DNA of 64,000 nt from Pelosinus fermentans JBW45 (GTDB lineage Bacteria > Bacillota > Negativicutes > DSM-13327). The position numbers and the translations under genes were made by a program. Position 1 is the stretch's first letter. Each line of letters begins with the position of its first letter. Below the pieces are notes generated by a model. The model was not told the origin of the DNA and searched no databases. It saw only the letters and a list, made by a program, of their open reading frames with translations. This document shows positions 4,022-64,000 of this stretch, one piece after another. The stretch lies in contig NZ_CP010978.1 in assembly GCF_000271665.2 (NCBI RefSeq), forward strand, positions 2,510,501-2,574,500, in the 5' to 3' direction.

Positions 4022-5234
4022 GACACATCTCTGCGTAATGATATTGTTACTGTCAATCACAATCTGTGGTATTGCTATGGCAGAGCCGCAAAGTATTGAT
4101 CTTAGTTTCGTAGATGAAGATGTGCGGGTAATATTACATACACTCGCTATTATTAGCAATGTTGATATCATTATTGATGAATCGATAAAAGGTAATATTA
4201 CGCTGAAACTTAAGAGTACAACTTTCGAGAATGCCCTAATTCTAATTACGTCAGCTAAGGGGCTATCCTATCGAAAAATAGGTGAGTCCTTTATTATAGA
4301 ACCTGTGGATATGGGGACAACAGAGATATATAAGTTGCGTTATATTCGTGCTGTTGATATAAAAAAAACATTGGAACCTATTATGAATAGTCTTAAATTA
4401 AAAGCTGAAATTGATGAGATATCAAATAGTTTGATATTTAGTGGTTCACCTACAGGTTGTGCTCGCATTAAAATATTATTAACAGATCTTGATGTTCCGC
4501 AGCAACAAGTGGTTATCGAGGCTAAAGTTGTGGCTATTAACAAAGCCAAGACAAAAGAGCTAGGGATCGATTGGTCATGGGACGTTACACCTCAATACGC
4601 AGAATATAGTGCAGAACAAGTCAATATTGCTAATGGTGTAACGACTATTGAACCAGGTAAAGTTACGCGTGATACTGGAAAAGGAATTATTCAATTTGGT
4701 CGTAATCCTGAAGGTCATCCTTATGAATTTTACTATCAAGCAAAAATTAATGCTCTCATTAGTAATGGTAATGCTAAAATCTTAGCTAGTCCTAAAGTAA
4801 CTACCATTAATGGAAATGAGGCTCGGATTTTAATTGGTGATCATATTCCAGTACTTACTGAGAGAATGGAAGACGGGAAAACGACTACTACAGTAGAATA
4901 TATTGATACGGGCATAAAACTTACCTATACCCCTACGATTACTGCTGATGGAACTATTACAGCAAAAGTACATACAGAGGTTAGTACTCCTAGCTTAGTA
5001 ACGGATATTAAGAACTATCGCATTACGACCCGTGAGGTAGAAAGTATGGTCTGCATGAAAGATGGTGAGACGATGGTGATTGGTGGTCTCATTGGCAGTG
5101 AAGAATCTAAAACAAATAATAAAATACCTTTCTTAAGCGAACTACCATTAATTGGTACGCTGTTTAAAAGTGTACATAATTCAAAAGTAGAAACGGAAGT
5201 AATCATCTTTTTGACAGCAAAATTAGTTAAATGA
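4014..5234 (+). CDS. pilQ: Secretin (PilQ/GspD family), short form
   Basis: Secretins form the outer-membrane gate for type IV pili or type II secretion. The 406-residue protein has a signal peptide ending at about AMA-E (residue 24), an STN-like N domain (VRVILHTLA, then GNITLKL), a NolW-type domain ending near VPQQQVVIEAKV, and a C-terminal secretin core (ILASPKVTTINGNEARI, then GIKLTYTP and MVIGGLI). It is much shorter than typical PilQ of 600-700 residues and close to the length of HofQ; it lacks AMIN domains. Its presence is direct evidence for an outer membrane. It overlaps the PilP-like gene. Confidence 0.9.
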   Translation: MNRTHLCVMILLLSITICGIAMAEPQSIDLSFVDEDVRVILHTLAIISNVDIIIDESIKGNITLKLKSTTFENALILITSAKGLSYRKIGESFIIEPVDMGTTEIYKLRYIRAVDIKKTLEPIMNSLKLKAEIDEISNSLIFSGSPTGCARIKILLTDLDVPQQQVVIEAKVVAINKAKTKELGIDWSWDVTPQYAEYSAEQVNIANGVTTIEPGKVTRDTGKGIIQFGRNPEGHPYEFYYQAKINALISNGNAKILASPKVTTINGNEARILIGDHIPVLTERMEDGKTTTTVEYIDTGIKLTYTPTITADGTITAKVHTEVSTPSLVTDIKNYRITTREVESMVCMKDGETMVIGGLIGSEESKTNNKIPFLSELPLIGTLFKSVHNSKVETEVIIFLTAKLVK

Positions 5235-8071: not shown

Positions 8072-9292
8072 ATGGCGAAAATTTTTGGATATAGAGCTAA
8101 AGACCGTAATGGACAAGTACTAATCGGTAGTATTTTGGCTGAAAGCGAATCGGCAGTGGCAGCTCATATCCGAGAAAAAGGCTATTTTATTACTCAAATT
8201 AAGGAAGAAGGTGGTGCAAGTTTATATAATAACCTTATTGATCACTTAAGAAGTAGCAGTTTAAAAGAGATTTCGATTCTTTGTCGTTTATTTGCCACTA
8301 TGATCGATGCAGGTTTACCGTTAATAGCTTCTCTTGATGTTCTCATTGCACAAACAAATAATCTACGAATGAAAAAAGCGTTACAAAATGTCTATAAAAA
8401 AGTCAAGGAAGGAGAAACATTATCCCGTTCTTTAGGTGATTATCCTACCATATTTCCTAGTCTTATGGTTAACATGGTAGAAGTTGGAGAAGTGGGCGGG
8501 TTACTAGATGATGTACTCAATCGTTTAGCCAATCACTTTGAAAAAGAACATAAATTGAATGAGAAGATTAAATCAGCTCTGACCTATCCGGCAGTAGTCA
8601 GTGTTATGGCAAGTGTATCTGTTGTTTTTATTTTAACCTTTGTTTTACCGACTTTTGTACAAATGTTTGATAATTTGAAAATGGAGTTACCATTACTTAC
8701 ACGCATATTACTGGCGACTAGCAATACTCTGCATCATTATGCTCTATTTTTGATCGCTTTTATTGTAGTGGGAACATATGGGTTAAAGATTGCATATCAA
8801 CGAGAATCATCCAGAAAAATGATTGATAAGTTGATACTAAAAATTCCTGTAGTTGGCATGTTATCTCGTAAAATTGGTATTGCCCGCTTCAGCCGTACCT
8901 TAAGCACTTTGCTTCATGGTGGTGTGCCGATTATAACTGCCTTAGACGTTGTGAAAAAGACTACTGGCAATCTTAGTATCATGGAAGCGTTAGAACAAGC
9001 ACAAGCTGGTATTAAAGAAGGGATGGCGCTAGCATCTACTTTGGCACAAAGTAAAGTTTTTACTCCTATGGTCATTCAGATGGTTTCCATCGGTGAAGAA
9101 AGTGGTGCATTGGACAAGATGCTCGAAAAGATCGCCGATTTCTATGAAAGTGATGTAGATGATGTAGTTGGTCGTTTAAGCAGTATTATTGAACCTGTTA
9201 TTATTGGGACTTTGGGAGTAGTCATTGGCTTGATTGTGATATCCATTATGATACCGATATTTGATATTATAACGAATCCTGGGAACCTATAA
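8072..9292 (+). CDS. pilC: Inner-membrane platform protein PilC/GspF
   Basis: PilC couples the cytoplasmic ATPases to pilin assembly. The 406-residue protein shows two T2SSF repeats (first around 70-190, second around 270-390) with the paired motifs VGEVGG and IGEESGALD, and membrane segments near 170-195, 220-240 and 375-400. It begins at ATG 25 bases after pilT behind AGGAGA. It is of normal length for the family. Confidence 0.94.
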   Translation: MAKIFGYRAKDRNGQVLIGSILAESESAVAAHIREKGYFITQIKEEGGASLYNNLIDHLRSSSLKEISILCRLFATMIDAGLPLIASLDVLIAQTNNLRMKKALQNVYKKVKEGETLSRSLGDYPTIFPSLMVNMVEVGEVGGLLDDVLNRLANHFEKEHKLNEKIKSALTYPAVVSVMASVSVVFILTFVLPTFVQMFDNLKMELPLLTRILLATSNTLHHYALFLIAFIVVGTYGLKIAYQRESSRKMIDKLILKIPVVGMLSRKIGIARFSRTLSTLLHGGVPIITALDVVKKTTGNLSIMEALEQAQAGIKEGMALASTLAQSKVFTPMVIQMVSIGEESGALDKMLEKIADFYESDVDDVVGRLSSIIEPVIIGTLGVVIGLIVISIMIPIFDIITNPGNL

Positions 9293-55892: not shown

Positions 55893-55955
55893 CACCGTTT
55901 GTTGCATGTTGCGTATAATGTATATCATCTATAACCATAGGGTGGGGTGATTTAA

Positions 55956-56519
55956 ATGACCTATGTTTATCCACAAGATGTTTTTACAGCTGTTGGAAAT
56001 GGCGAAATTTCACCGACTCAGGCATTTAAGTCTTTGCGAGAGTTAGATAATATAACTGCTCATCATACTAAAATCGATAATCGGCAAAAGCGAATAGAAG
56101 AAATCTTATATGAATTAGACCATTTAATAGGATTGTCAGAAGTGAAAAAATTAGTAAGAGAGATTTACGCATTTATTGAAATTCAGCGTCGACGCGTACA
56201 GGAAAAATTAAATACGGAACCATTAGTACTACATATGATCTTTAAGGGAAATCCAGGTACAGGAAAAACCACCGTGGCTAGGCTCCTTGGGCAAATATTT
56301 CGTGAGATTGGAGTATTACAACGTGGTCATCTTATTGAGGTTGAGAGAGCTGATTTGGTTGGAGAATACATTGGGCATACAGCCCAAAAAACTCGAGAAC
56401 AATTAAAGAAAGCATATGGCGGCATCTTATTTATTGATGAAGCATACTCCTTAGCCCGGGGCGGTGAAAAAGATTTTGGTAAAGAATCTATTGATGTATT
56501 GGTAAGAACCAGTATGTAA
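55956..56519 (+). pseudogene. spoVK: Stage V sporulation protein K, 5' part, split by the element
   Basis: SpoVK is a CbbX-like AAA+ ATPase needed for spore maturation, normally about 300-320 residues. Here 187 codons are open. The reading includes [19 protein letters not shown], Walker [15 protein letters not shown] near 92, Walker [14 protein letters not shown] near 151 and [14 protein letters not shown] near 169-182; then the sequence departs from the family and stops at TAA 56517. The sensor and lid regions are missing. A recombinase gene starts its 3' end 40 bases beyond. The promoter side (GGGTGGGGTGA ribosome site) is intact, so the gene could function if the element excises. Confidence 0.88.
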
Positions 56520-56559
56520 TGACCTAAAGGAATAAATGCATATATGGTACCATGGGTTT

Positions 56560-58089
56560 TTATAAAAACTTCAAATCAATCGTAAATTCAGGCTTGCTAT
56601 TCTTGGCATAGGTAGTGTCAATTCGTTCAACATTTACTTTATCGAGTACAGCACGCATAGCAATCTTTCGTTCTTCCTCAGAGTAATACTGAGTATCTTT
56701 GAAGTATTTATTAAGATTCATTGCAATATCTGCGGGGCTAGTTTGAGATGTAAGAAAATTCAATTCATCATTCAAGCGTTTTGTTGTAACTTCAATGTCA
56801 ATAAGTTGCTTGTTAATCTCATCTAACTGTTTTTCGGCATCACTGCCATTAATAATTTGTTGCCGAAACCATCGCATAATGGTTTCCTTTTGAGTGCTTA
56901 TTTTTTTCTCAGTATCTTTTAGTTTTACCAAAGTGTTTTTAATCTTTGCTGTTGCAATAGGATTGCCAATATCTTGTGCGTATTGATCAATTAGTTCGGG
57001 GTTTTCTGCCAACTCATGTAACTTATCCCATACCAATTCATCTAGTATAACAGCAGGGATACGTCTGGCTGTACATTTATCATTTTCTAAGTACATATAG
57101 GATGTGCTAACTTGCGTTAAGCAAGCATAATAGCTGACCGGATTATTGCTATTCCCCGAATGTTTGATAGTCATTTTTCTCCCACAGCGTGCACAGCAGA
57201 CTAGACCATTTAGAAGATAATCATTTTTTAAATTTCTTTTTGCTAAATCCTTATTCGATTGCAGTTGCTTTTGCGCAGAGTGCCAGGTGATTTCATCGAC
57301 AATAGCAGGTACTTTGATGGGTATCCATTCAGATTCCGGTCGAGTCTCAATTGTACGAGTGTTAAAACCTGTCTTGGTAGATTTGTGCTTCATACTATAA
57401 ATAACGCCTCTATAGGCTGTATTCGTAAGTATGCGGTGTATGCTGGAGACAATCCAACGATTACCACGGGGAGCGGGGATACCTTCACGGTTCAATTCTT
57501 TGCTGATCAGGGCGGTACCCATTTTGTCTTTTATGCACAAATCAAATATTTGACGTATAATAGCAGCTTGATCCTCATTTATAATGTACATACTGTTAAC
57601 TTTATCATAGTCATATCCAAAACAGCGCCCATTGTTTACAAGCTTACCTTGGCGAGCCTTTCCCTTCTTACCGCGGGTTGTACGTTCTTTGATTTTCTCT
57701 TTTTCATAGGCGGATATGGCGCCTCGCATGGAGTAAAATAATTTTCCTTCAGGAGATGCTTCAAAGGTAACGGAGACAAACAGTAGTTTTGCTCCGGATT
57801 TTTCTATTTCATCCGTAATAATGAGTTGGTGAGCTAGGTTTCTGGCCAAACGATCAGGGTCGTATATAACAACTATATCAAATTCTCTTCTTTCTAATCC
57901 ATCACGCAGTTGGGTGAGGGCAGGGCGATCAATATACTCCCCACTATAACCATCGTCAATAAACTCAACGAAAGCTGTTGCCCCCAATTCACTTGCCTTC
58001 TGGCGATTTTCCGACAACTGAGTCTCAAGAGAATATCCTTTCTCTGCTTGATCTGTTGTAGATACACGTATATAAAGTGCTGCAATCAT
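56560..58089 (-). CDS. Large serine recombinase (integrase/excisionase)
   Basis: The protein has about 509 residues: a resolvase catalytic domain with Ser10 in ALYIRVSTTDQAEKGYSLE, the YDPDRLARN arginine motif near 78, a recombinase domain (about 150-260) with GYDYDKVN and RGNRWIVSSIHRILTN, a zinc ribbon beginning CCARCGRKM, and a coiled-coil tail. The ATG at 58089 follows AGGAGG; the frame is open 44 codons further. No lesion is seen. Such enzymes integrate and excise phages or intervening elements between attP and attB, usually with a separate directionality factor. It points toward the spoVK junction. Confidence 0.95.
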   Translation of the reverse strand: MIAALYIRVSTTDQAEKGYSLETQLSENRQKASELGATAFVEFIDDGYSGEYIDRPALTQLRDGLERREFDIVVIYDPDRLARNLAHQLIITDEIEKSGAKLLFVSVTFEASPEGKLFYSMRGAISAYEKEKIKERTTRGKKGKARQGKLVNNGRCFGYDYDKVNSMYIINEDQAAIIRQIFDLCIKDKMGTALISKELNREGIPAPRGNRWIVSSIHRILTNTAYRGVIYSMKHKSTKTGFNTRTIETRPESEWIPIKVPAIVDEITWHSAQKQLQSNKDLAKRNLKNDYLLNGLVCCARCGRKMTIKHSGNSNNPVSYYACLTQVSTSYMYLENDKCTARRIPAVILDELVWDKLHELAENPELIDQYAQDIGNPIATAKIKNTLVKLKDTEKKISTQKETIMRWFRQQIINGSDAEKQLDEINKQLIDIEVTTKRLNDELNFLTSQTSPADIAMNLNKYFKDTQYYSEEERKIAMRAVLDKVNVERIDTTYAKNSKPEFTIDLKFL

Positions 58090-58221
58090 ATATAGCCTCC
58101 TATCCGTAACAAGGTTGATAAAGTCTAATATGTAATTACAAGAAATAGATGAGATTGTTATAGTTACTAACCTATAATAATTAAAAACAATCAGAGAATA
58201 GCGTGGCTTAAGTTTGTTCAA

Positions 58222-58416
58222 TTGCCATTGCTTGATAAAGAGAGATGTTTTTAATAATAGTTGTCGATTAATTTTGCTTTTATTTTGGTACCATCACTTT
58301 TAATTAATAATAGAACAATAGTATTTTACCACGATATTACAATATTGGCATTTATATTTGTAGAATTAAAGGAAGAAATGATCTTTCTTAGAAATTGAGC
58401 AACTATCATTAAAACA
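58222..58416. other. Intergenic region upstream of the recombinase
   Basis: AT-rich sequence that should hold the recombinase promoter. I see no clear sigma-E, sigma-K or sigma-A promoter pair on the minus strand. The 9-mer TGGTACCAT occurs here (near 58288) and also near 56545 by the recombinase 3' end. Confidence 0.3.
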
Positions 58417-58959
58417 TTGCTACTAAGCATGGAGGTTGCGGAAAATATTTTGAATCAATACATTAAAAAAGAAACTTGTTATTGGAGTATTCATTTCATC
58501 GCTTTTATTTGTCCTTATATGATCAACAGATTGATAATGTTGATTCAACAATTTCTAAAAGTTATTGCCGAGCATTTAACTAGACCTGACTTACTTAATC
58601 TTAATAATGACGAATTGATTTACGAAAAGCTAAAAATCCCGAATAGCGTCATAGGGGCATATGATGGAGGAAAATTAGTTGACTATCATGCTATGAACAT
58701 GGTTGATTTAACAAAAGAATTGATCAATATTGATGTAAGCTGGCTACCAGGCACAGTTACTAGAATCACTAAGTTAGGACCGACTGCAGTACATGCCATA
58801 CAAGCCGTCTTTATTGGTATAGTACATCAGCCCAAATACATCTTAGATGCAGATATTGCCAAATGTTTTGATAGGATTGACCACTGGTCAAACCTTTGTA
58901 AACGCTTCATGACAATTCCACCTTTTATACACAAAGGCACAGCCTGTCCATTCAAATAA
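58417..58959 (+). pseudogene. Chimeric ORF ending in a group II intron reverse-transcriptase fragment
   Basis: The open frame of up to 180 codons has two parts. Residues about 125-155 (AVHAIQAVFIG, then KPKYxLDADI-like PKYILDADIAKCFDRIDH) match the RT palm region of group II intron proteins with the first catalytic Asp, but the rest of the RT domain and the YADD box are missing. The first half (LKIPNSVIGAYDGGKLVDY region) is not recognised. The C-terminus runs into a terminator. It looks like a deletion remnant. Confidence 0.6.
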
Positions 58960-58988
58960 TGGAGTAAGGCTGTGCTTATTTCTTTTTT
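58937..58988 (+). terminator. Terminator after the RT remnant
   Basis: GCACAGCCT (58937-58945) pairs perfectly with AGGCTGTGC (58967-58975), with an inner CCATT/AATGG stem, followed by TTATTTCTTTTTT. Confidence 0.75.
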
Positions 58989-59006
58989 CAGACTAGATCA
59001 TAATTG

Positions 59007-60173
59007 TCATTGTAAGCAAGAATTATTTTCTAAAGTAAGTTCTAAGCTTGCTATAATAAACTGCACCATGTTGCCGATATCAGCAGGAGAATTAAACGTT
59101 ACTATGCTAGACTCATCTTTACTTGAGATCTTATAGTAAGGACATAGTTCATTGGTTACAGAAGCATCAAGATAGGAGCTGAAATGGCATTGGTCGCTTG
59201 ATTTAAATCTTAAAAACTCATAGTTGTTAAAATTCAAAACAAGCTCATCAGGTAACAATTTAAAACTAAGCATTGATATGTCATGTTCATTATCCTGTAG
59301 AACCTTTTCAATACGAGCAAAGACACGCTGTTCGATGTCATACATTTCTTGCCTTAATTGTTCTTTCGTTATTATTACTGGTTGTTCAGGAACTATTTGG
59401 CAGGACAATGGTTCAATAGAGTGGGTTGGCTTAGGGACATTTTTTATAGTCTTTGCTGTAGTAGGCTGCAATACTTCTTTACTAACCTCATTAAAAATTT
59501 CAGATAATGTTGATAGTAGGGATTCCTTTACCAATGGACGGTATCTTTCAATGGCTCCATTTGTTAATCGTATTTTACCAGTTTGCTTGATAATTAGTCT
59601 GATAAACTCGTCAGAAGGGTCATTGAATAAATTTCTCAACACTTCTTGTATTGAAATTACAGAGGATAAGTCTTCTGCTAGTTTAGTAATAACATTGTTC
59701 TCAATAAGTTTTTTTCTAAAGTGTGATAGTGTTTGTATATCTGCTTTTGTGATTGAAGAAAAATCAATTTGAAAGAATGGAGTAGTGTCCATTATGTTTA
59801 GTTGCTTCACATCCGAAAAAAATTTATATTTAACGCCATCTGTTATAATAGCCAATTTTAATTCAGGAGTAGAGTTAAAATAGCGGCATAATTGAGCATT
59901 GTGATTATCAAGCCTACTACCGACAGGCTTAGCTTCAATAAACATAATAATTTTATTATTCTTCAATACTGCATAGTCTACTTTTTCACCCTTTTTCTTT
60001 CCGAAGTCTGCCGTATATTCAGGCTGAACTTCAAGTGGATTGAAAACATCAAAACCCAGCAGTTGTATGAACGGAATTATCAGTGAATGCTTGGTCATTT
60101 CCTCATTAGTAATATGGGATTTCCGTTGCTGGATTTGAGCAGCTAATGTTTGAACTTCTTCTTCAAAATTCAT
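59007..60173 (-). CDS. HsdR N-terminal-like nuclease-domain protein
   Basis: The 388-residue protein starts with a type I restriction HsdR-N-like domain: the PD-(D/E)xK pattern has Asp66 (GEKVDYAVL), Glu80 and Lys82 (MFIEAKPVG), preceded by IIPFIQLLGFDV and followed by LAIITDGVKYKFFSD. The C-terminal half (beyond about 260) is unrelated to the helicase of HsdR and not recognised. No HsdM or HsdS is nearby. Such solitary proteins are common in prophages and defence islands; a DNA-degrading or defence role is inference. Confidence 0.75.
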   Translation of the reverse strand: MNFEEEVQTLAAQIQQRKSHITNEEMTKHSLIIPFIQLLGFDVFNPLEVQPEYTADFGKKKGEKVDYAVLKNNKIIMFIEAKPVGSRLDNHNAQLCRYFNSTPELKLAIITDGVKYKFFSDVKQLNIMDTTPFFQIDFSSITKADIQTLSHFRKKLIENNVITKLAEDLSSVISIQEVLRNLFNDPSDEFIRLIIKQTGKIRLTNGAIERYRPLVKESLLSTLSEIFNEVSKEVLQPTTAKTIKNVPKPTHSIEPLSCQIVPEQPVIITKEQLRQEMYDIEQRVFARIEKVLQDNEHDISMLSFKLLPDELVLNFNNYEFLRFKSSDQCHFSSYLDASVTNELCPYYKISSKDESSIVTFNSPADIGNMVQFIIASLELTLENNSCLQ

Positions 60174-60289
60174 AATAACATCTCCTCGTATATTAATTCT
60201 TTCTATAACTAACCAAACTCAAAAAGTTATTCCTCACAAACTAGCAACGCATTCAATGTGGCAAAGAAATATTGTTTTGAGTTGCTTTA

Positions 60290-61393
60290 TTACATCTCAC
60301 ACCCTAATTTACGGATTTCCTTCATCAATAAGTTGTAGCTATGCTCAGCAGTATATAAACTATTTTCCAAGTTGATTTTAGAGATGGTGTCTATAAATAG
60401 ATCCCAAAGTGACTGTTCACTGAGAGCTGACTCTTTCTTGATAGCAACTACACGAGCTACAACTTTAGGGGCTAAAAAGCTCATTTTTTCAGAAACAGAA
60501 CCAGAATCCATAAGGCCACTTAAATCTCTATAACAAACTTCCAGCAAAAATTCTAATTCTTTTGCATGATCTTTCATATCACCGTAGACGATAGACATGC
60601 CAAGGATGTTATTTCTATAGAGACCCCAGCTTTTCGATTGCTCGTATTCATATAGTCTTTTAGTGAGCATTTCTAAAAATAGCTGATAATGATTTAATAG
60701 GGGATTCTCTTTTTTAAAATTATCGGCATCCCTAACGGATATACCTATATCATTTCGATGTCTGTGAGAATACATAATATGCTGATTGTCTGCTAATATC
60801 TCAATTGCCTTATCGGTACACTCAAAATGAGAATTATTAAAGTATGCAGCAGAATCTTCTTCAGGAGATTCATTTATTATCCGGGTGATCAAATCTTCCT
60901 TTTTTCCTGTTACATTTAATCCCTTATCCTTTAAATAGCTCTTTAATTCTGGGAGCTTACATTTAGTCATATTAAATTTATAATCAGATTCTTGTAAATA
61001 TCCATTATTAAATAGTTTTTCAATTACAGCTTGATAATCTAAATTATATTCATGAGTCCAATACCCCGCGATATTCGGATCTTTAATACTTTTACCATTT
61101 ATATAATCTAAAAAAAGTATTTCGTAAGGAGTAAGAGGTGAGTAGTCCTTTTTTGAATTGCTAATATTGTTTATATTAATGGCTTTAGTTTTATTGCTAT
61201 GTATTTTAGAAAACTCATCTGAACGTTTCATAGCTTTTTCATATGCTTCTTTTTTAAATTTCTCGATTTCTTCATCTGATAATCCGATGATGTCTCTTCT
61301 TTGCCTTTTATTCAATATTTTGCCCGAGGGTTTATTATTTTCTAGATCTTTAGTTGAGGTAAAAGCCCTTCTAAGGAAATCAAATAATCCCAT
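60290..61393 (-). CDS. SAP-domain protein of unknown function
   Basis: The roughly 367-residue protein has a charged, possibly coiled N-terminal region (about 25-75), and a SAP-type helix-loop-helix near 147-172 (KLPELKSYLKDKGLNVTGKK) that binds DNA in other proteins. The rest is alpha-helical and not recognised. AAGGAG suits the ATG at 61393; ATG 61402 touches it. SAP-domain proteins of this kind occur in phages of Bacillota. Confidence 0.65.
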   Translation of the reverse strand: MGLFDFLRRAFTSTKDLENNKPSGKILNKRQRRDIIGLSDEEIEKFKKEAYEKAMKRSDEFSKIHSNKTKAININNISNSKKDYSPLTPYEILFLDYINGKSIKDPNIAGYWTHEYNLDYQAVIEKLFNNGYLQESDYKFNMTKCKLPELKSYLKDKGLNVTGKKEDLITRIINESPEEDSAAYFNNSHFECTDKAIEILADNQHIMYSHRHRNDIGISVRDADNFKKENPLLNHYQLFLEMLTKRLYEYEQSKSWGLYRNNILGMSIVYGDMKDHAKELEFLLEVCYRDLSGLMDSGSVSEKMSFLAPKVVARVVAIKKESALSEQSLWDLFIDTISKINLENSLYTAEHSYNLLMKEIRKLGCEM

Positions 61394-61413
61394 GTCGCGC
61401 ATCTCCTTTATTA

Positions 61414-61790
61414 TTACTTCCTACAACTAACCCACTCCACAATCCCTTCCTCCCTAACATATCGACCAATATCATTGTCATATTCGAAACGACAAGCCTC
61501 CTCATCAAATAATAGCTGCCAAGCAAACTCATTAACCTCACGCTCAAAGCGACTAGGGAGAAGAGATATGTTCGCTCCAGCCTTTGTGGAGTAGGGCATG
61601 TCTTAATTCATGAGCATACGTTTGCCGTTACTTATATAGCTCTAGATCACTATTAATTACAATAAATTTGCGTCGAAGAACGCATAAAAACCGTGAATAT
61701 GTAAAGGCAGAGAAGTTAATCTAATTTCAATTTTTAGTAATCTGCAAGCTCATTTCGTTCTAATTTGCAATCCTGCATTAACAAACACAT
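61414..61790 (-). pseudogene. ImmA/IrrE-family metallopeptidase, broken
   Basis: Read across frames: an N-terminal ATG-initiated piece (MQDCKLERNELADY then stop), IEIRLTSLPLHIHGFYAFF in a second frame, KFIVINSDLELYK, a TAA stop, RQTYAHELRHALLHKGWSEH, then a frame change to SLLPSRFEREVNEFAWQLLF and the C-terminus. The zinc motif HExxH is HELRH. ImmA-type proteases cleave phage or ICE repressors to induce excision; loss of it fits an element no longer under normal induction. Confidence 0.75.
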
Positions 61791-62051
61791 CCTTTCGATT
61801 TATAGTTGTTAACTAAAATTATTCTATAACAGGAAGAAAAACCCTGTATTAAATTGTAAAAAAATGATGATATAAGAAGATTATTAAAGCAAAAAAGATT
61901 TTAGTAAGGGATATTAAAAGGAGTGGATTACTTAAAAGAGGTGTAATTCTGCTAAATGAAGCAATTATTGAAAACAAAAACAATTGTAAAGCGGACAATC
62001 ATATGCAGCATAAACTGTATCAGGCAACGATTTGAATAGGAGGCGAAAATT
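61791..62051. other. Divergent control-type region of the element
   Basis: This gap separates the leftward block from rightward phage-like ORFs, the place where a lysogeny switch would lie. ACAGG/CCCTGT half-sites near 61830-61848 might be an operator. No repressor gene is seen; only very short frames are open. Confidence 0.3.
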
Positions 62052-62225
62052 TTGGAAAGTACTCAAAAGACCAATCGATCTAAAATATCGCCAGAAAAAC
62101 TAAAAGAAATAAAAGTGCATTGGAGGATGCTAAATCAACCAACCCAAGAAGCGCTGAAGAATTACAATCGGATTTTAGCAAAGGCTCAACTTAGAGTTTA
62201 CCACGAAGTATTTGGAAGCAAATAG
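62052..62225 (+). CDS. 57-residue helical phage-like protein
   Basis: A TTG preceded by ATAGGAGGCG opens 57 codons: MESTQKTNRSKISPEKL, a basic amphipathic middle and the end RVYHEVFGSK. It is predicted fully helical and basic. I do not recognise it. The ribosome site is the best support. Confidence 0.5.
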   Translation: MESTQKTNRSKISPEKLKEIKVHWRMLNQPTQEALKNYNRILAKAQLRVYHEVFGSK

Positions 62226-62469
62226 CCGGTGCTCCGGCTGTAAAAAAAGTGGACAGGCGGTGATTTGGTGAGCGAAAAAAGCTGATTACATATAGGGATG
62301 GATCAGCTATTAGTGCTGTGATGCTGTGGTAGAAAAAGAATCCGTTTTAGAGGACAGTGCAACAACAAGTTACGGTACTGCAGACTCAGAGAGATCAACA
62401 GACCAATTTGCAAACTGAGGATGTGCACTTAAAAGAAGAACTTGCTGGCGTTAGAAGAGCGGGAGTGGT
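62226..62469 (+). other. Decayed phage-like segment
   Basis: Protein-like fragments occur in different frames, none with good start signals: one of 42 codons from GTG 62357 (QQQVTVLQTQRDQQTNLQTE, coiled-coil-like) that overlaps the next ORF by 16 bases, and another in a second frame ending EDSATTSYGTADSER. It looks like phage tail-module DNA that has lost frames. Confidence 0.35.
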
Positions 62470-62727
62470 ATGGCAGAGACATTAGATATCATCGTTGGGG
62501 GGGCTGGTGATGAGCGCTTTGGGAGTCAATCAGATGAGATTTTACCGATGGTTATTGATGCGGTGAAGCAGGTTGCTAGTCGATTTGGTGTAGTGCTTGT
62601 CATTGGTCGCGTTAAGGCCGTTCAGGAAGTCTTTGACCAAAAGCCGGAGGATGAGTCCGTGGAAGTATTGGTGCATAGCTCAGATGCGCTTTTATTTACT
62701 GCTAAAACGAAGAGCATTCCACCATAA
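62470..62727 (+). CDS. 85-residue hypothetical protein of the element
   Basis: The frame opens at an ATG behind GGGAGTGG. The protein has an alpha/beta pattern: DIIVGGAGDERFG, then EILPMVIDAVKQVASRFGV and VLVIGRVKAVQEVF, ending KTKSIPP. Not recognised. Its GC content is higher than the chromosomal genes to the left, in line with foreign origin. Confidence 0.5.
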   Translation: MAETLDIIVGGAGDERFGSQSDEILPMVIDAVKQVASRFGVVLVIGRVKAVQEVFDQKPEDESVEVLVHSSDALLFTAKTKSIPP

Positions 62728-62747
62728 AGTAGAAATGGGGTAATAGA

Positions 62748-62772
62748 AGATAAGGTGCCCAGCACCTTATCT
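62748..62772. repeat. Perfect 11-bp hairpin with three-base loop
   Basis: AGATAAGGTGC (62748-62758), loop CCA, GCACCTTATCT (62762-62772). No T-run follows, so it is not a classical terminator. Confidence 0.6.
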
Positions 62773-63120
62773 AAAGTGACAATATCTATCAATTATTTAC
62801 CTCCTGTAAAAGTCAAGATAGAACAGCATATGCGGAAGGTAATAAAATGATTCCTATTAAATTGGAGGGGAGAGAAAATATCATGAATCAACGGTATTGG
62901 TAGAAAGCTAGATAATTATGCTCCTATTTTCTCGTCAGATTGCCAAGGATGAATGCCATGGGATTGGATTTGTAAAGTCGAAGCCAACTGGTGTAATGGC
63001 TGAATGTAGTTGTAAGCAGAGGTTTGATATAGCCTGAATAAGATCATCATCGTACTTTTATTTTCTGGGAAATATTAGGATATTTGTATGGTGATAACTT
63101 CACTTTCCCACTAGGGAGGG
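62773..63120 (+). other. Segment with short broken frames
   Basis: Open fragments include VTISINYLPPVKVKIEQHM (62776-62847) with no ribosome site, and a 39-40-codon frame with KDECHGIGFVKSKPTG and a CSCKQRF cysteine group (about 62915-63036). They read like pieces of real proteins, but none can be called a gene. Confidence 0.3.
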
Positions 63121-63286
63121 ATGAGTGTGGGACCATGTGTGCGTTGTGGTCGGTTAAAGGATGATGTGGAGAATACTCGCTCTCATTGCCAGCAGCGTAA
63201 AGAAAACTGCTGTTAATTCAGAGGTACGCAGCCAGATCGATAAGGCTGTTAAGTGGCGGCGCAATATTATAAAGGATTTCGGGTGA
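63121..63286 (+). pseudogene. Small zinc-finger-like protein with one frameshift
   Basis: GGGAGGG precedes ATG 63121 and GTG 63127 in the same frame: GPCVRCGRLKDDVENTRS, then HCQQRKENCC and stop at 63216. Shifting one base near 63205 continues protein-like sequence, VNSEVRSQIDKAVKWRRNII then KDFG, to TGA 63284-63286, which overlaps the next start as GTGA. The CxxC...HC pattern suggests a small zinc site. It is probably a 54-55-residue phage protein broken by one base, or two short ORFs. Confidence 0.45.
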
Positions 63287-63417
63287 TTCAGAACCAGCTT
63301 GGGGAGATATTAGTGTTTCCAACTGCGGTACCTATAAAGGCTGAGCATATGACTGATCTAAGAAACATCAAGAATATTGGCCATGATTACAAAGATCCAT
63401 GTCAATTGATTGATTAG
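63283..63417 (+). CDS. 44-residue hypothetical protein
   Basis: GTG at 63283 follows AAAGGA by six bases and overlaps the preceding frame as GTGA. The product (NQLGEILVFPTAVPIKAEHM, then DLRNIKNIGHDYKDPCQLID) is not recognised. Confidence 0.4.
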   Translation: MIQNQLGEILVFPTAVPIKAEHMTDLRNIKNIGHDYKDPCQLID

Positions 63418-63419
63418 AT

Positions 63420-63458
63420 AAAAAAAGAACAAGACCAGCTCCGTTGATGGTCTTGTTC
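63420..63458 (-). terminator. Minus-strand terminator-like hairpin
   Basis: GAACAAGACCA (63427-63437) pairs perfectly with TGGTCTTGTTC (63448-63458). The T-run lies on the minus strand (TTTTTTT), so it would stop transcription coming from the right. Confidence 0.6.
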
Positions 63459-63581
63459 CAGGAGAATATGTACAGGCTCCATTGTTATGGTCACCTGTTG
63501 GAAGAGAATATGTGCACAATCATATTATTGCCAATTAAGGCATAGGATATACGCGGAAGGAGTAAGTAAGAGGAGATGGCG

Positions 63582-63803
63582 TTGAGAATGAAGCAGTTTA
63601 TTCTGATGTTAGCTGTAGTGGCAATGCAATATACAGTGAACTCTGGTGACACACTGCAGTCTATTGCTGAACAGTATTGCCAAGGGGATGATCCGCGTCA
63701 GGTTGCGGAGTTTCGCGAGGGAATCAGGGAGCTGAATTATGACGTGATTGGTGAGAGTGATGTGTGGGAGGGGGTAGTTTTAGAAATTAATCGGTGGATG
63801 TGA
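63582..63803 (+). CDS. Small LysM-domain protein, phage tail type
   Basis: The protein of about 73 residues has an N-terminal hydrophobic stretch (about 4-14) and a LysM domain, YTVNSGDTLQSIAEQYC, ending EGVVLEINRW. Short LysM proteins of this form occur in tail modules of Bacillota phages. AGGAG at 63571-63575 suits the TTG at 63582; the ATG at 63576 touches it and the ATG at 63588 is also possible. Confidence 0.75.
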   Translation: MRMKQFILMLAVVAMQYTVNSGDTLQSIAEQYCQGDDPRQVAEFREGIRELNYDVIGESDVWEGVVLEINRWM

Positions 63804-63978
63804 AATGAAGTTTTATAGCAAGAACTAGATCATCTTGACAGCTTTTCGAAATGGAAGATCTAATGATACGTATAAACATCAAAAATAATATCCAGTCAGC
63901 TACATAAGAGTACCAAGAAGTCCATCCATGGTGATGAGCCATATGCCCTGTATTGATATGGATGTATTCAATAAGCAC
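63787..63978 (-). CDS. Possible small membrane protein, minus strand
   Basis: A GTG (63978) or ATG (about 63942) opens a frame with GWTSWYSYVADWILFLMFIRI, one likely membrane segment, and a polar tail. It has no good ribosome site and overlaps the LysM gene by 17 bases. The terminator at 63420-63458 on the same strand gives some support. Low confidence. Confidence 0.25.
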   Translation of the reverse strand: MLIEYIHINTGHMAHHHGWTSWYSYVADWILFLMFIRIIRSSISKSCQDDLVLAIKLHFTSTD

Positions 63979-64000
63979 CGCGAATAACGTCCATGGGAAA

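Follow-up and report, generated by a model that had tools for sequence, protein, structure and literature searches.

The sporulation gene spoVK of Pelosinus fermentans JBW45 and other Negativicutes is split at one codon by a serine-recombinase element that is probably excised during sporulation

A sporulation gene that breaks off in the middle, with the gene of a large serine recombinase at the break, raises the question of whether it has simply been destroyed or whether it is reassembled when spores are formed. We encountered such a locus in Pelosinus fermentans JBW45, whose genome is a single contig of 5,380,816 bases. The window analysed here is a stretch of 64,000 nucleotides of this contig (C1:2510501-2574500), and the interrupted gene is spoVK. 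In Bacillus subtilis, the deletion of spoVK causes an about million-fold sporulation defect (PMC10659427). This gene, nearly essential for spores in that species, has so far stood outside the interrupted genes reported in the open-access literature.

The open reading frame at positions 55956-56519 (plus strand) matched the SpoVK model TIGR02881 only at positions 3-136 of 261 (E 1e-72). The likeness to SpoVK stops at the Val codon 56502-56504, and the closing codons RTSM with the stop codon 56517-56519 are sequence of the inserted element. An earlier sequence-only reading of this DNA had put the end of the similarity near 56500, after the Walker B motif; the model match and the junction alignment now place the break exactly at 56502. 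The cut lies inside the AAA+ domain, in the interval between Walker B and the arginine finger, and the truncated protein is missing the arginine-finger segment (NPGLRSRF) together with the C-terminal domain. The same reading had described an intact large serine recombinase directly after the break, with its 3' end towards it, and this description holds, with a gap of 58 bp and three Pfam domains in the enzyme (Table 1).

The remainder of the gene, which the sequence-only reading had expected to the right and in the same frame, is indeed present there. A profile search of the complete chromosome found TIGR02881 positions 130-261 at C1:2575787-2576179 (plus strand), 1.3 kb past the window end. 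Both halves of spoVK are on the same strand and in the same frame, with 8,797 bp between them, and merging them at the GTA codon (56502 in the window; C1:2575799) within the shared GTAA yields a full-length SpoVK without a stop codon. The complete JBW45 genome contains no second spoVK, of which an intact copy had also been considered; only the two halves reach E 1e-20, and the remaining AAA+ matches have at most about 27 bits. A GTPase-like gene (L010 10194-11579) overlaps the end of spoVK and more ORFs stand close behind it, so that excision of the element would also bring this apparent operon under the spoVK promoter.

Table 1. Features of the split spoVK locus of JBW45. Positions are those of the window unless preceded by the contig name C1.
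Feature	Position	Strand	Details
Promoter-like site of spoVK, CACC-N15-CGTATAATG	55893..55920	+	resembles a sigma-K promoter; conserved
spoVK 5' part	55956..56504	+	codons 1-183 of 314, with Walker A and Walker B; TIGR02881 match and junction alignment
Crossover core GTAA (attL)	56502..56505	+	common to the 5' and 3' junctions; junction sequences of 23 two-half genomes
Intervening element	56502..64000 in the window; end at C1:2575798 (window-equivalent 65298)		7.5 of 8.8 kb in the window
Large serine recombinase, 509 aa	56560..58089	-	ATG at 58089, GGAGG upstream; Pfam Resolvase, Recombinase, Zn_ribbon_recom
Cargo: HSDR_N endonuclease-like protein	59007..60173	-	Pfam HSDR_N; phrog_4225, E 8e-84
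Cargo: SAP-domain protein with phage relatives	60290..61402	-	Pfam SAP; phrog_10777
57-aa ORF, candidate recombination directionality factor	62052..62225	+	TTG start, AGGAGG site
Cargo: small LysM-like protein with phage relative	63576..63803	+	Pfam LysM; phrog_30153
spoVK 3' part	C1:2575799-2576197, past the window end	+	begins where the element ends

Is the arrangement peculiar to this strain? We surveyed 380 Negativicutes genomes, with follow-up, and found 47 that bear spoVK, which is intact in 22 and split at the same Val codon in 25, the latter distributed over seven families; one genome with a contiguous but frameshifted spoVK (G287) was left out of the split count. A homologous recombinase (at least about 48% identity), encoded on the strand opposite spoVK, is found at all 25 split loci. 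In three exceptional genomes (G298, G299, and G318), the halves are far apart or on different contigs, and the recombinase is with the 3' half. Joining the halves gives an open spoVK frame in each of 23 genomes out of 23. With the same codon split and a homologous recombinase present in 24 further genomes, chance is excluded as the origin of the JBW45 split. Within the genus Pelosinus, five genomes have both halves, and two drafts have one half with the same recombinase. Uninterrupted spoVK, which the sequence-only reading had suggested looking for in related genomes, is found in one Pelosinus genome (G007) and, within the sister genus, in two, with identical junction codons. Twelve recombinases from the wider group, 48-54% identical and including those of Sporomusa acidovorans and Propionispora sp. 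2/2-37, are all located at a split spoVK. In G298, the two halves are 292 kb apart and inverted on one contig (L082, G298:C4:734633; L083, C4:442892), and gene repair there would therefore need an inversion instead of an excision; a chromosomal rearrangement or an assembly error may account for this arrangement.

Outside the Negativicutes, spoVK is mostly intact among 398 Bacillota genomes. In one genome of another class (G442), about 75 kb of DNA (G442:C60:5637-82096) interrupts spoVK at this position, with a different recombinase (29% identical) adjoining the 3' half. Polysaccharide-synthesis-like genes were noticed in this 75-kb stretch. In another genome (G651), contig C74 ends and contig C60 starts exactly at the spoVK junction, with a few codons of overlap, as expected if the assembly had met both split and rejoined forms. 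From these two genomes, the spoVK site seems to be a repeated target.

The codons targeted by the insertion read I-D-x-L-V/K-x-M-E-D, with the junction at the slash. GTRA(AA) is common to both sides of the junction in all 23 split genomes with both halves. The inner arms are mutually inverted repeats in nine of ten third-clade genomes (15-23 of 28 matches, p < 0.02), nearly always with an equal offset; the arm symmetry is weak in Pelosinus. In JBW45, only the GTAA core links the element ends at the junction, and there is no direct repeat longer than 9 bp. Neither the junction of an excised circle nor the rejoined spoVK junction was found in viral contigs, which is a weak test.

The recombinase is the sole gene found in every spoVK element. 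Elements that could be measured whole range from 2,969 bp, comprising the recombinase and a 170-aa ORF (G303), to 23,103 bp (G078). The 509-residue recombinase of the JBW45 element is the predicted excision enzyme. The 57-aa ORF and a conserved block upstream of it are present in all seven Pelosinus spoVK elements, and family searches returned no match for its product; by analogy with CD1234 of Clostridioides difficile and SprB of SPbeta (PMC5025042), it is the best candidate for a directionality factor. The 170-aa ORF, typical of Sporomusa-type elements, is an uncertain candidate for a directionality factor in general, since a further copy is located upstream of the intact spoVK in G304.

With 8.8 kb in total, the JBW45 element lacks the full set of structural and replication genes that an active temperate prophage such as SPbeta would have. 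Besides the integrase, only the endonuclease-like, SAP-domain, and small LysM-like genes have phage relatives among the ORFs tested. As for a phage with the same integrase, the nearest viral contig is 46% identical and has no spoVK in the stretch compared. The ORF at window positions 58417-58959 seems to be a fusion of remnants, the start of which resembles a chemotaxis-type protein intact in the G003 element, suggesting decaying cargo. Close to the 3' end of the element are coding sequences for a Cys/His-rich protein of 73 residues (L010 8761-8982, plus strand) and a short Gly/Cys-rich protein (L010 about 9090-9212, minus strand), YjcZ-like by eye. The block with these two proteins also occurs in G003, G005, and partly in G004; in B. 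subtilis, yjcZ is a sigma-K gene (PMC517825).

Are the separated halves still in use? In three clades, the 5' half has a median dN/dS of 0.03-0.05 and the 3' half one of 0.05-0.06, while the recombinase has 0.07-0.11; these values are approximate, with synonymous changes near saturation in some pairs. Strong purifying selection thus acts on the 3' half in each split clade tested, and a half that lacks its own start would not be conserved to this degree unless it became part of a functional protein after rejoining.

The recombinase tree places the 25 enzymes from spoVK loci together, with one long branch (L100 of G083) among them. The split is scattered on the SpoVK tree and needs about 11 changes. 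Recombinase and SpoVK distances agree in families f22 and f27 (r 0.95, p 0.0005), where the split is present in eight of eight genomes. They also agree in Pelosinus (r 0.81, p 0.03) and disagree in families f8, f16, f25, and f31 (r 0.26, p 0.09). We read these trees and distances as long vertical retention with clean losses in some lineages and transfer between others, loss and independent gain being indistinguishable for individual intact genomes.

Of 45 Negativicutes spoVK genes, intact or split, 40 are preceded by the motif CAC-N15-18-NRTATAMT (shuffled mean 0.08), nearly always 55-67 nt before the start. The sigma-K consensus of B. subtilis consists of AC and CATAnnnTA separated by 16-17 bp. 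The Negativicutes motif resembles this consensus. B. subtilis has both a sigma-E and a sigma-K promoter at spoVK and can sporulate without the former (PMC517825). The JBW45 genome contains a strict form of the motif at three places: at spoVK, ahead of a YkuD-domain gene (ykuD belongs to the sigma-K genes of B. subtilis; PMC517825), and ahead of a short ORF that lies behind the sigE-sigG cluster and has a serine recombinase immediately after it. The genome-wide occurrence is only suggestive, because a control pattern gave two matches; it is the conservation at spoVK that points to a sigma-K-like promoter. No sporulation promoter of the sigma-E or sigma-K type stood out before the recombinase in the 25 genomes.

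We consider it very likely that the insertion belongs with the intervening elements of the skin, vfbin, vrin, gin, and yin kind and undergoes programmed developmental excision in the mother cell. An 8.8-kb element would have been inserted at a fixed site in spoVK by its own large serine recombinase, and any SpoVK made while it is in place would be truncated, retaining Walker A and Walker B. When the mother cell sporulates, attL and attR would be recombined by this enzyme, probably together with a directionality factor encoded by the element (for which the 57-aa ORF is the candidate). The element would be released as a circle, and the frame ...IDVLV-KSMEDH... would be restored under the sigma-K-like spoVK promoter. 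The interrupted copy would stay in the spore, because the rearrangement would be limited to the mother-cell chromosome. Excision is the best explanation because both halves are conserved, spoVK is nearly essential in B. subtilis, and a probable split strain sporulates: Pelosinus strain UFO1, which makes heat-resistant spores (PMC6107796), is very probably the split genome G006. It is further favoured by the fixed codon and opposite-strand recombinase shared by 25 genomes, the inverted-repeat arms in one clade, the correlated distances in two clades, and the sigma-K-like promoter present at split and intact spoVK alike. The weak att symmetry in Pelosinus counts against excision, as do the negative search of viral contigs, the lack of a prominent sporulation-type promoter ahead of the recombinase, and the scattered distribution, which also fits a mobile element.

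An ordinary integrative island or defective prophage with spoVK as its attB would excise at a low, constant rate without developmental control, and only element-free cells would sporulate. All spores would then be free of the element, and its persistence in all eight genomes of families f22 and f27 with a congruent history would be impossible; the retention of 3-kb elements comprising one recombinase and one other ORF also speaks against such an island. In favour of an island are the scattered distribution, with approximately 11 changes needed on the SpoVK tree, the recombinase history that is incongruent in families f8, f16, f25, and f31, the phage-related cargo, the lack of a recognizable sporulation promoter ahead of the recombinase, and the unrelated 75-kb element at the same site in another class. 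We regard this explanation as unlikely.

We find it highly improbable that spoVK is simply broken, so that JBW45 and the other split strains would have no SpoVK or no spores and the halves would be decaying. The dN/dS values of both halves (0.03-0.06 in three clades) and the stop-free rejoined frames contradict decay, and other Pelosinus strains form spores (PMC4582584, PMC6107796); spore formation by JBW45 itself is, however, undocumented (PMC4582584), which fits a broken gene and counts against the excision reading. We give hardly any credence to separately expressed halves that cooperate as a split protein without DNA rearrangement. A possible in-frame start for the 3' half inside the element exists in some genomes, but the in-frame extension of this half varies between genomes with neither a conserved start nor a conserved ribosome site. 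Moreover, the cut falls inside the AAA+ domain, after Walker B and before the arginine finger, and the recombinase is always retained.

Excision of the spoVK element might not be the only DNA elimination in this strain. sigK is also split in JBW45 (L122, G000:C1:2225000-2240000; 1562-2053 and about 8150-8413), with a SpoIVCA-like recombinase (L122 2065-3618, minus strand) immediately after the 5' half and another serine recombinase following the 3' half. A split sigK was also observed in G003, G005, G006, G007, G008, G092, G296, and G303, with probable further cases in G078 and G083; in G305 and G312, sigK is intact. The spoVK element is distinct from skin, as it sits in spoVK and the sigK gene of the same genome has a separate element. 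At a further locus (L123, G000:C1:2341000-2352000; 4710-4900), after sigE-sigG and one further ORF, there is a sigma-K-like site ahead of a 43-aa ORF that runs up to a large serine recombinase gene (L123 4887-6371), the 3' end of which faces the ORF. The 43-aa ORF has no family match, and by its arrangement the locus is possibly a third split sporulation gene. The nearest recombinase not associated with spoVK (47%) was observed at L125 (G083:C92; 765-2405 and 2344-3927), where its 3' end overlaps an asparagine synthetase gene that appears truncated; in B. subtilis, asnO is among the sporulation genes (PMC517825). We regard it as possible, while leaning slightly against it, that the spoVK element is an ancient and partly domesticated switch of the Negativicutes, with one recombinase lineage, one codon, and cargo turnover, which would act in series with the sigK split and thus entail two DNA eliminations per spore.

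If the excision reading is true, spoVK is probably rebuilt by DNA removal at every spore formation. With an occurrence across a whole class, relatives with and without the split, and elements from 3 to 23 kb, form a natural series in which one can ask whether such elements are regulators benefiting the host or parasites in a gene needed only in a dying cell. The compact 3-kb element of G303 would be a good system in which to search for directionality factors.

One of the closest precedents is skin in sigK of B. subtilis and C. difficile, where the gene is likewise split in frame, a large serine recombinase adjoins the 5' half, and sigK is rebuilt in the mother cell (PMC5025042, PMC4191935). 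The spoVK element differs in its target gene and in its recombinase, which is only distantly related (about 25% identity with the SpoIVCA-like sigK recombinase of JBW45), and its excision is a prediction. Serine-recombinase elements in other mother-cell sporulation genes, namely vfbin (spoVFB), vrin (spoVR), gin (gerE), and SPbeta (spsM), have been described in Bacilli, and their targets are restored by precise excision (PMC4191935, PMC5595907). The spoVK elements are much smaller (from 3 kb) and combine one recombinase lineage with one codon in seven families of a class. The yin element in yabG of Clostridium botulinum similarly has a recombinase downstream of the 5' half, a candidate directionality factor, and a conserved empty site in relatives, but was described as unique to one strain (PMC10747680), whereas the spoVK element is widespread and old. 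Beyond sporulation, the fdxN element of heterocystous cyanobacteria undergoes developmental excision by the serine recombinase XisF in a terminal cell. Of the profiles matched by the JBW45 recombinase, XisF is one of the better ones (E 7e-33), but the 114 bits fall far short of the equivalog cut-off of 375 bits; programme, gene, and phylum are different. The targets named in the sequence-only reading (sigK, spoVFB, spoVR, and spsM) are correct but incomplete: with gerE (gin; PMC5595907) and yabG (yin; PMC10747680) added, they make up the interrupted genes reported in the open-access literature, all in Bacilli and Clostridia. We found no report of spoVK as an interrupted gene in open-access full texts, although an earlier report is possible. 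The spoVK element thus most likely extends a known type of switch to another target gene and another bacterial class, for neither of which we found a report, and it is unusually deeply conserved.
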